Shown in pieces: positions 43,164 through 46,482 of a DNA stretch of 64,000 nt. The DNA is from a bacterium (lineage in GTDB: Bacteria > Cyanobacteriota > Vampirovibrionia > Gastranaerophilales > Gastranaerophilaceae). The DNA is taken from contig JAGAJM010000004.1 in the NCBI GenBank assembly GCA_017626055.1, positions 186,001 through 250,000 of the forward strand, written 5' to 3'. Each line of letters begins with the position of its first letter. Position 1 is the first letter of the stretch. The position numbers and the translations under genes were made by a program. The notes below the pieces were generated by a model. It saw only the letters and a program-made list of their open reading frames with translations, did no database searches and was not told the DNA's origin.

Positions 43164-43171
43164 TAATAAAA

Positions 43172-43201
43172 AACGAGGGATTGGTTGTCCAATCCCTCGT
43201 T
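43172..43201 (-). terminator. Terminator of the SBP-TolC fusion gene
   Basis: AACGAGGGATTGG / CCAATCCCTCGTT forms a 13-bp stem with a TTGT loop; on the minus strand it is followed by a T run, 17 bp after the stop of the gene. Confidence 0.88.
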
Positions 43202-43217
43202 CAATTTCTTCAACTCT

Positions 43218-45689
43218 CTATAATGAGAAGTCAGCTTCTGCAGGTAGAACTTTTGGAATATTGTGAATAAATTCCTTAGCTCTGTCGTGAGCTTTTGTCC
43301 AGTTCATTGCGATTAGACCTCTTTGTACCAAAAGTAATTCTTTGAAGAATTCATTTTGAGAGTTCATAGCTTCAACTTTTGAATGGAAATACATATGTTG
43401 AGCATCTGCGATTTGGTTGATTGGAGCAGTACCCATTAAGTATTTAGCTTTAACCATTTGATAGTTTTCAGCTTCAGCAAACATTGCTTTGTATGATTTT
43501 TCGATGATGAAGTACTTAGCAATAGCTCTGTTTACAACGCTTCTAACGTTCATTTCTAACTCAGTATTAACTTGTTCTAAATATGCGTTAAGTTCGTTTA
43601 ACTCAGCTTTTGCTCTTGCGATTTCAGCAATTTTTGTACCACCTTCGATAGGTTTCCATTGAGCTGCAATGAATACTCTACCATAGTTTTTGTCTAGAGT
43701 GTTACCCCAGTAGCTCCTTGGAGCTGCTAAAGGACTACCTATAATAGGATTTCCAGAAGCATCTGTTGCTCCACCTGTCATTTGTAATCCTGCAATAGAA
43801 CCTTTAGCATATGTTTCATAAGGTAAGCTTCTATCGAATTGTGTAGCATACTCAACTGTTAACTTAGCATTTGGCATAATGAATTTTTGAGCATAATTTG
43901 AAATTTCAGCTTTTTTCATTGCAATTGCTGCTTTTAGTTTAGTTGTTTCTGGTGACATGTAGATTACTTCAGCAACTAACATATCAGTAAATTTAGCTAA
44001 TTTTTCAGGTGTTCTCACATGATCAATAATGTGTAATTCTGATGTGAAGAACGCTGGATCTGTAGCTGTCAATGGGTTAAGAACGAAGTGTTCTTTTTGA
44101 TCGTGGTAAAGTAATTTGTTGATGTGAATTTTGATGTTATCGTATTCAGCTTTCATGCTAAGAAGTTTTTTCTCAGCTTCTGAAACTTCACCAGCCCAAC
44201 GTAGAACTTCTTCATTACCACATTTACCAGTTTGTTGACGAACTCTTGCCATTGCAAGAATTTCTCTTGTTTCGTTTACATATTCTTCTTGAACTTTGAT
44301 TACGTTTTCAAGCATTAACATATCAACGTATAGGTTTGCTGTTTCAAATCCCATTGTTACGTCAGTCAAAGCTTTTTCAGCTTTATCAAATTTCAATTTT
44401 TTGTGTTTAACAATAATGTTAGTTACAAGATCTGGTGAATAGATAACTTGATCCATACCAACTACGAATTGACCAGCTCTAATTGGAACATCAGAGTATG
44501 AAAATGCATAATCTTTGTTAAATGTTTGGTGACCTAAGTCAAGTCTTAGTGTTGGAAGATATCTTAAGTAAGCTGAAGTTGTAGCACGTCTAGCTGCTTG
44601 TACTAAGAATTTTTTACGTAGCATATCTAAGTTGCTTTCTTCCAAAGCTGTTAATAAACCATTAAGGTCGTATTTTTTCACTTCTTTGTTAGAAACGATT
44701 TCAGCATTGTTTAACAATCTCAATGGAGCTGCATAACCTAATGCTTCACCAGTATCTTTGTTGTAGAAAATTACCTTGTCATCAAAGAAAGGAATTTTTT
44801 CTGTTTTAACAGTGTTACCATGTAATACACCGTGAATGCTGAATGATGTAGCTTCTGCTAATTTTTTATCAACGTTGAATGCTGATGTACCTAGTAATGC
44901 ACCATAGTTAACATCTTCTTTACCAACTGATGAGAATGAATACAATTTTTTAGCTGTGATAGCGTTGTATAATTCTTTTTTCTGTTCAGCAGTGATGTTG
45001 TATAGTGGTGTAACAAATACAGAGTCAACATCTGCTGGAATTTTGTTGATAACTGCTTTAACATCGTTGCCTACTGGAAGAACAACGTAGTTCATTTCAA
45101 CATTTTTCTCTTTTAATTTTTTGTCAATCAAAGCGTTCCAGTTAGCTCTTGTTTTGTAGAAGTTTTCGTTCATAAGAACTGCAACTTTCTTTTGTTGTGG
45201 AACTAATTTTTTGAACAAAATAAAATCGTTAACTGACTGTTGTACAGGGTTGAAGAATTTGTCACCAAAATCTCTCAAACCATATTGGTCAATTGTTACT
45301 ACGTATTTGTTTTTGTTTGGTTTGTCAACGTAGTAAGAGCTAGACATATAGCCTAGTGAAATTACCATGAAAGCTCTAGATGCTAAAGCTTTATCAGAAG
45401 CTTTTACTGCACCTTGTTCACTCCAGTCACCAGTGAAGATTAAATCTTGTGGGAATGAAGCTTTGTAATCAGGTAATAAAGATCTTGTAATCTGTGTTTG
45501 GAAAGTTTTCAAAACTTCTGCGTTTTTGTCTGATGGCCCGTCAAAAACGAAAGCCAATTCAACTGTTTTTGCATTTGGAGCTGCTTGTAATTGTTTTCTT
45601 GCTGCAGGGTTTTCGCTAATAGCAAATGTTGCTCCCCCGAAAGAAATCATGAAAACAAAAGTCAGCAATGCGCAAATAATTCTTTTCAT
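43218..45689 (-). CDS. Fusion of periplasmic-binding-like domain and TolC-type outer membrane domain
   Basis: The 823-residue protein has a signal peptide (MKRIICALLTFVFMISFGG). Residues about 40-330 resemble a type 1 periplasmic binding fold of the ABC substrate-binding kind (KTVELAFVFDGPSDKNAEVL, AVLMNENFYKTRANW, VDSVFVTPLYNITAEQK). Residues about 340-820 are TolC-like helical hairpins (LTDVTMGFETANLYVDML, EYVNETREILAMARVRQQTG, PIEGGTKIAEIARAKAEL). TolC proteins are the outer membrane exit ducts of efflux and type I secretion. A sensing domain on the periplasmic side of the channel is unusual. AAGGAG lies upstream of the start and a terminator lies downstream. It supports a two-membrane envelope. 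Confidence 0.83.
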   Translation of the reverse strand: MKRIICALLTFVFMISFGGATFAISENPAARKQLQAAPNAKTVELAFVFDGPSDKNAEVLKTFQTQITRSLLPDYKASFPQDLIFTGDWSEQGAVKASDKALASRAFMVISLGYMSSSYYVDKPNKNKYVVTIDQYGLRDFGDKFFNPVQQSVNDFILFKKLVPQQKKVAVLMNENFYKTRANWNALIDKKLKEKNVEMNYVVLPVGNDVKAVINKIPADVDSVFVTPLYNITAEQKKELYNAITAKKLYSFSSVGKEDVNYGALLGTSAFNVDKKLAEATSFSIHGVLHGNTVKTEKIPFFDDKVIFYNKDTGEALGYAAPLRLLNNAEIVSNKEVKKYDLNGLLTALEESNLDMLRKKFLVQAARRATTSAYLRYLPTLRLDLGHQTFNKDYAFSYSDVPIRAGQFVVGMDQVIYSPDLVTNIIVKHKKLKFDKAEKALTDVTMGFETANLYVDMLMLENVIKVQEEYVNETREILAMARVRQQTGKCGNEEVLRWAGEVSEAEKKLLSMKAEYDNIKIHINKLLYHDQKEHFVLNPLTATDPAFFTSELHIIDHVRTPEKLAKFTDMLVAEVIYMSPETTKLKAAIAMKKAEISNYAQKFIMPNAKLTVEYATQFDRSLPYETYAKGSIAGLQMTGGATDASGNPIIGSPLAAPRSYWGNTLDKNYGRVFIAAQWKPIEGGTKIAEIARAKAELNELNAYLEQVNTELEMNVRSVVNRAIAKYFIIEKSYKAMFAEAENYQMVKAKYLMGTAPINQIADAQHMYFHSKVEAMNSQNEFFKELLLVQRGLIAMNWTKAHDRAKEFIHNIPKVLPAEADFSL

Positions 45690-45792
45690 TTTCTTTTCCC
45701 TAACTCCTTACTCTTAATCCTTTTATTTAAACTAATAAATAAAAAATCTTCTTAATCGAGTTTAGTATAGCAAAAACATGCCAAAATAGAAA

Positions 45793-46482
45793 TTATTTTG
45801 TTACAATTAAAAATAAAATCAGGCAAAACGCAATCACAGAGAAGATTATAACTGTAAACCAATATGGCGAAATCCCTGTTGGTTTTTTGCAAGATTTCAT
45901 AGAAGTTTGTTGTTTTGTTGTTTTTGATTTTGTATTTTTTTCTGCTTTTTCTTTGTTAGTTTTTTTAGCAGAACGAATAGCTGAACTCTTTGCTCGAGCT
46001 TTTTCTTTAGCTTTTTTATATTTTTGTTCTAATGTTTTATCTCGTTTTCCTGTTGCTAAAAGTTCAATGTCATAATGAAGATCTAATACTTCTTTGTTTC
46101 CTTTTTTGTTATAAACAATATAATTAATAGCAACTTCAAAAGCACGTTGTAAACATTCCAACGCATCAATTGCATTTTGTTTTACTGATGATGCGTGAAC
46201 TGATTGGTTTCCGCATTTTTTCAAGAAGTATAAATCCTCGATAAATTCTCTTTCCTGTTCAGAACCTTGAGAATTGTCTTTTAGGGTTGCAAGCATTTGG
46301 TCAAATGTGTTTTCGGTTGTTCTTTTGTCCCCTAGGACATTTTTGCAAACGTTTTCGGCAAAGCGTCTGGTTTGTCCCATGCATTGCTCAAAATACTCAT
46401 CTCTATATAGTTTTTCGGCATCAGAGATGATTTCGTATAAGTTCTTATCTGTACTTTTTAAAAAATCGAAATTAGTTACCAT
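45793..46482 (-). CDS. DUF4145-like protein with C-terminal membrane anchor
   Basis: Residues about 1-120 look like DUF4145, a HEPN-type helical bundle (CMGQTRRFAENVCKNVLG, FLKKCGNQSVHASS with the GNxxxH motif). A very basic linker (about 150-198, rich in Lys) follows and the last 25 residues are a membrane helix (WFTVIIFSVIAFCLILFLIV). The 229-residue protein would be anchored with the helical domain in the cytoplasm. HEPN-type proteins are often RNA-directed; the role here is unknown. Confidence 0.75.
   Translation of the reverse strand: MVTNFDFLKSTDKNLYEIISDAEKLYRDEYFEQCMGQTRRFAENVCKNVLGDKRTTENTFDQMLATLKDNSQGSEQEREFIEDLYFLKKCGNQSVHASSVKQNAIDALECLQRAFEVAINYIVYNKKGNKEVLDLHYDIELLATGKRDKTLEQKYKKAKEKARAKSSAIRSAKKTNKEKAEKNTKSKTTKQQTSMKSCKKPTGISPYWFTVIIFSVIAFCLILFLIVTK

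Follow-up and report, generated by a model that had tools for sequence, protein, structure and literature searches.

The described proteins that come closest to the one presented here, which is encoded in the window (by which we mean the whole stretch of 64,000 nucleotides of Gastranaerophilales DNA that was analysed), belong to two groups, the outer membrane factors and a set of periplasmic binding proteins. With the TolC/outer membrane factor superfamily (PF02321; E. coli TolC, 1ek9 and 2xmn) it has in common two OEP repeats, the fold and, in its relatives, pump operons, but it differs from TolC, to which it is about 15% identical, by some 300 extra N-terminal residues that are predicted to form a complete binding-protein fold. 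With TrpX, CD0873 and VC_1101 (PF04392) it shares the two-lobed fold in full, across some 270 residues (Z about 20); in contrast to these proteins, at 15% identity, it is fused to a channel, lies without importer genes beside it and has specificity residues that look replaced.

Such fusion proteins are already contained in public records, under generic names. WP_041667226.1 of Sulfuricurvum kujiense, annotated as an ABC transporter substrate binding protein, has the same domain order, with OEP and ABC_sub_bind both above cut-off, but is 20% identical to the window protein and heads an operon with an adaptor and an ABC-2 exporter, after a TetR gene. TolC family proteins of 726 and 723 aa from Cetobacterium somerae are collinear with the window protein, carry an N-terminal extension and are encoded by the first gene of adaptor and RND operons, but their N-domain is shorter, strongly diverged and unrecognised by Pfam. 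An operon of the same kind as that of Sulfuricurvum, likened by description, encodes the HP1486-HP1489 exporter of Helicobacter pylori, where a TolC-like protein, an adaptor and two ABC transmembrane proteins are found together (PMC9570263); the portion of that paper at hand does not mention a binding domain in HP1489. No description of the fusion was found in the open-licence PubMed Central literature, in which the fusion or the lineage was sought, and term searches of the first 300,000 characters of a review on tripartite exporters (PMC8277102) and of part of a paper on TolC partners (PMC13082787) gave no mention of it.

Domain architecture of the fusion protein

The fusion gene, delineated by its open frame, Pfam and an AlphaFold2 model, occupies positions 43218-45689 of the minus strand, on which all features given below also lie, and encodes 823 aa, a binding domain followed by a TolC-type outer membrane channel, without internal stops; the preliminary description had the coordinates right and left the strand unstated. 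A likely ribosome-binding site, AAGGAG, can be read from the sequence 5′ of the ATG (45704-45709), and approximately residues 1-23 (45621-45689) appear by eye to be a signal peptide, with a positive start, a hydrophobic stretch and ATFA. An intrinsic terminator with a 14-bp stem and a T tract is situated directly 3′ of the stop codon (43171-43202). The upstream gene (229 aa, 45793-46482), 103 bases away and on the same strand, does not encode any known pump part; its product weakly resembles the N-terminal part of a type I restriction endonuclease (43 bits, with the cut-off at 729). No pump genes were found next to the fusion gene, and no importer permease or ATPase genes beside it among the neighbours read in the window. 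The source genome is a draft of 1.87 Mb. A phage origin found no support, there being no PHROGs match at E 0.001.

The channel half (approximately residues 342-814; 43248-44666) matches OEP (PF02321) in two stretches, at E 4e-21 and with 76.1 bits against a cut-off of 22, as well as NCBIfam TolC (8e-7). In the full-length AlphaFold2 model, computed as a monomer from 29 aligned sequences (mean pLDDT 76.7), the part after the binding domain consists of very long helices and two beta hairpins, which is the TolC pattern, and Foldseek gave E 1.3e-15 and a TMt of 0.79 against TolC. As modelled, the channel half is a complete TolC-type channel, and the likeness to TolC noticed earlier for the last 480 residues or so is borne out by the double PF02321 match, Foldseek and the size. 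A low-confidence stretch within the second beta hairpin (residues 624-665, pLDDT below 50; 43695-43820) differs in length by tens of residues among the aligned relatives, is Ala/Gly-rich in many of them and is probably a surface loop, exposed at the cell surface.

The N-domain, approximately residues 41-333 (44691-45569), was assigned as a type 1 periplasmic binding domain from PF04392, the TrpX model, AlphaFold2, Foldseek, VIA-align and the comparison of a profile with PDB sequences. ABC_sub_bind (PF04392) was matched in Pfam at E 2.4e-6 with 27.4 bits (cut-off 25.9), and NCBIfam TrpX at 4.6e-11 with 42.4 bits, which is below the equivalog (NF041285) cut-off of 390. PF04392 is a poor detector of these proteins: at E 0.01 it reaches 7 of 29 family members (OEP reaches 29 of 29 at that threshold), and used alone it finds 5 of the 194 genomes of class Vampirovibrionia. 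In the full-length model residues 41-333 form a two-lobed alpha/beta domain with alternating strands and helices; a separate model of the N-domain, from 27 sequences, has a pLDDT of 85.9. When the full model was submitted to Foldseek, TolC and its kin were followed by VC_1101 (3lkv), CD0873 (6hni) and TrpX (3lft), at E 8e-10 to 8e-9. The N-domain alone aligned over 268-273 residues with Z scores of 20.9 (3lkv), 20.1 (3lft) and 19.9 (6hni), the best of the structures compared, the next complete binding protein scoring 14.8, and every entry in its structure-comparison list was either a type 1 binding protein or a receptor with the same fold. The same three proteins were returned by a profile of 22 N-domains compared with PDB chains (3lkv, 6hni and 3lft at E 1.4e-9, 3.5e-7 and 1.1e-4, respectively). 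Profile searches, the AlphaFold2 models and the structural comparisons all give one picture: the two-domain architecture is confirmed, and the N-domain is, as predicted by these methods, a TrpX-like type 1 periplasmic binding fold that is nearest to TrpX, CD0873 and VC_1101, which bind aromatic amino acids. In bacteria, domains of this type ordinarily serve to capture nutrients for uptake. The preliminary description had seen such a fold in the first 300 residues or so and had proposed structure prediction for two domains as a check; the models indeed give a two-lobed domain and then the TolC pattern, and Pfam, AlphaFold2, Foldseek and the size all fit. It had also named a purely helical, non-binding adaptor as the outcome that would speak against a binding domain, and this candidate was rejected, both models being alpha/beta. 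Likewise, the protein is not an ordinary TrpX importer component, because it is fused to a channel and scores far under the TrpX cut-off.

Distribution and origin of the fusion

Among 40 related genomes, including the source genome, 23 had a match at E 0.001. As read from the resulting table, the fusion was present, whole or partial, in 21 of these 23 (15 of the 25 genomes of the genus and 6 of the 15 from elsewhere), the channel half alone being matched in the other two. Since 10 of the 25 genomes of the genus lack it, the gene is dispensable. A scan of contigs gave 27 loci, 23 of which were matched from residue 4 or earlier to residue 821 or later. Over 386 genomes of the phylum, a profile of the N-domain returned 44 matches, of which 39 were in the order Gastranaerophilales; the frame was at least 805 aa long in 37 of these 39, and 627 and 630 aa long in the other two. 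The five matches outside the order were in frames of 344-346 aa from one other family of the phylum and involved only the last third of the profile. A whole-family profile (A1) gave a tally of 60 of the 194 genomes of the class, inflated by ordinary TolC proteins that it also caught, and a near-whole-length fusion match in 22. Looked for in relatives, as had been proposed at the outset, the fusion is thus found in the order and, as described below, in other phyla, and is not confined to the window gene.

That the long frame arose by an accident of assembly or read-through is, in our judgement, next to impossible. Apart from one locus in which the frame is broken (L043) and two in which it is cut by contig ends (L035 and L045), nothing speaks in favour of it, and the frame is intact across many independent assemblies and has homologues in complete Sulfuricurvum and Cetobacterium plasmids; the intact relatives refute a frame artefact. 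At L043 (8001-10411) the fusion frame is split into 626 aa and a 120-aa remnant. A frame of 378 aa at L095 (203-1339; G050) contains the N-domain and about 20 residues of the channel half and lies 200 bases from the contig end. L025 carries a fusion gene 73% identical to that of the window, yet the record is titled Muribaculaceae bacterium and looks mislabelled or mixed.

When the whole protein was compared by tblastn with 72,556 plasmids, one record was found at E 1e-5, that of Sulfuricurvum kujiense (89% covered, 20% identity). With the Sulfuricurvum protein as query, four Cetobacterium records, annotated as TolC family protein, and two Klebsiella TolC were added. Two of the four Cetobacterium loci were opened; they encode the 726- and 723-aa proteins, with long N-terminal extensions and a channel half that begins near residue 263-282, compared with about 342 in the window protein. 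Both extensions align collinearly with the family profile, though with low scores (18.3 and 8.5 bits; by hhalign, a probability of 73%), and they have no Pfam or PDB-sequence match, from which the Cetobacterium N-domain is likely to be a reduced relative of the binding domain. Compared with all plasmids, the Cetobacterium channel half gives no matches beyond Cetobacterium itself and the fusion of Sulfuricurvum (E 3e-29), and the Sulfuricurvum channel half matches Cetobacterium at 2e-30 and ordinary TolC later, at 8e-8. In a tree of 26 channel halves, with the N-domain columns removed, the 17 fused ones were on one side with support 97/96, the nine non-fused rows being all from Cyanobacteriota and some branches being long. 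Fused channel halves therefore group apart from ordinary TolC, as one ancient fusion would predict, and a single ancient origin is favoured by these sequence comparisons.

Operons and genomic neighbours

In all seven of the distant loci read, the fusion gene has those of an adaptor and a pump immediately behind it; a partial contig (G028) and a locus at a contig end (G050) were left out of this count. The pump is of the RND type in G025, G031, G026, G106 and the two Cetobacterium plasmid loci, while in Sulfuricurvum a TetR regulator gene precedes the fusion gene, which is followed by those of the adaptor and the ABC-2 exporter. The N-domain passes the Pfam cut-off in G025 and Sulfuricurvum, and is below it in G026 and G106, where the family profile detects it. 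What we describe is a genuine protein family that spans several phyla and is associated with exporters.

The neighbours within the order were compared at 41 loci of less than 90% identity, drawn from 49 with the fusion out of 52 scanned. Only one of the 41 (G210) has, close to the fusion, pump genes and an adaptor gene similar to the operon-borne ones, in a run of genes for MarR, an EmrA-like adaptor, an EmrB-like MFS pump, an acyl-ACP thioesterase, the fusion and an acyl ligase. In G223 there is a further MFS-like piece, at a distance of about 6 kb from the fusion, and L032, L092 and L145 have ABC ATPases nearby, which are not necessarily those of exporters. For the source genome, in which adaptors were sought by PF16576, a pump partner was not found; three adaptors pass PF16576, each with a channel gene nearby.

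The commonest neighbours in the 41 loci were the gene of a long-chain acyl ligase, at 10 loci, and that of an acyl-ACP thioesterase, at 5, one or the other being present in 13, in varied positions and orientations; any other neighbour family occurred in at most 3. Since the acyl ligase or a weaker homologue was detected in 40 of 40 relatives searched, whether or not the fusion was present, its presence does not track the fusion, and proximity alone is worth noting. This weakly suggests a link of the fusion to fatty acid release or recycling. An acyl ligase and, in some loci, a thioesterase are seen near the fusion in L094 (6519-11534) and in L028, L030, L033, L039, L046 and L047. In the source genome both ligases are away from the fusion, and one adjoins a thioesterase-like gene; on contig G000:C14 (L146, 1243-12958) a ligase and a thioesterase-like gene are separated by a few kilobases from the genes of an RND pump and its adaptor, an arrangement that looks as though the release of fatty acids and efflux were kept together. 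In Sulfuricurvum (L086, 1793-6565), genes for a patatin-like phospholipase and a phospholipase A are located upstream of the fusion operon, on the opposite strand. Synechocystis is reported to secrete its free fatty acids via an AcrA-AcrB-TolC system (PMC11594277).

Conservation of the cleft

For 40 proteins of the order, mean conservation was 0.660 in the N-domain versus 0.654 in the channel half. In the same set, loops on the cleft side (0.703) were more conserved than loops on the opposite side (0.637; p 4e-4), the cleft loops being assigned from secondary structure and the p-values in these comparisons taking columns as independent. This bias was weaker in wider sets, with p 0.003 for 45 proteins, distant members having been added, and p 0.03 for 11 diverse proteins, and in distant relatives many cleft residues differ. 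Identical in 40 of 40 are D50, W89, G113, Y136, Y178, G256, D259, D274 and N310. Given this higher conservation on the side of the cleft, ligand binding by the N-domain is plausible.

In solved aromatic amino acid binders, specificity is set by Glu-263 or Ala and by Tyr-279 or Gln (PMC6816091, in part). The corresponding positions align to G256 and D274, each conserved in 40 of 40, at an identity of about 15% and with the TrpX alignment shifting the second by two residues, and the known specificity residues thus appear to be replaced. In addition, the Asp of an Asp-Asn pair common to the three solved proteins is Phe (27 of 40) or Tyr (13 of 40) here, a residue that, in solved binding proteins, we take to contact the ligand. 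With this Asp replaced and, apparently, the specificity residues as well, an aromatic amino acid is unlikely as ligand, and the ligand probably differs from aromatic amino acids.

Discussion

Our leading reading, to which we give slightly less than an even chance, is that the N-domain acts as a ligand sensor on an export channel. The protein would be the outer membrane exit duct of a three-part exporter, an export role being supported by the adaptor and pump operons of the relatives; in the window's lineage the partner pumps would be encoded elsewhere, and in E. coli tolC is unlinked to the pump genes that it serves. If the channel is a trimer, three binding domains would hang from it into the periplasm. 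These would take a small ligand present there, probably other than an aromatic amino acid, and by closing upon it they might help to recruit the adaptor and pump or to open the channel towards them; export would then respond to the contents of the periplasm. The fold, the fused frames in 37 of 39 cases, the pump operons and the conserved cleft loops favour such a sensor, and it is weakened by the fading of the cleft bias, the changed cleft residues of distant members, the single adaptor locus among 41 and the dispensability of the gene. The preliminary description had proposed a ligand sensor as a control point for efflux, and this interpretation is supported in part, as regards the two domains and the export role; as regards sensing, the specificity residues of the solved proteins appear to be replaced, and the N-domain of some relatives is shortened or has a diverged pocket. 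The broader proposition, that one ancient fusion gave rise to a family of ligand-responsive ducts in at least three phyla, the channel being gated or loaded by a periplasmic ligand, is in our view less likely than not.

Two other functions of the binding domain have to be considered. It could be a degenerate structural collar, without ligand, that stabilises the trimer, docks the adaptor or positions the duct; the apparent replacement of the pocket specificity positions of the solved relatives, the shorter Cetobacterium N-domain with its weak profile match and the limited reach of PF04392 in the family would all agree with this. We nevertheless regard a collar as rather unlikely, as within the order cleft-side loops are more conserved and many residues are invariant, which a mere scaffold would not need. 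It could also be a cargo receptor that catches a periplasmic molecule and hands it to the pump, an import receptor reversed for export, and here one can point to the gene order of fusion, adaptor and pump, and to the ligase or thioesterase genes in 13 of 41 loci as a hint of lipid-like cargo. The cargo of an RND pump enters close to the inner membrane, at the porter domain of the pump itself, and the N-terminus of TolC is located at the equatorial domain; given these positions, a hand-over is not obvious, and fatty acids do not resemble ligands of the binding-protein fold, so that we consider a cargo receptor improbable.

Outer membrane exit ducts are usually regarded as passive, being opened by adaptors and pumps. 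With a binding domain of its own, such a duct would gain a site of control or capture in the periplasm, at the final stage of efflux, and this in lineages whose efflux is unstudied so far.
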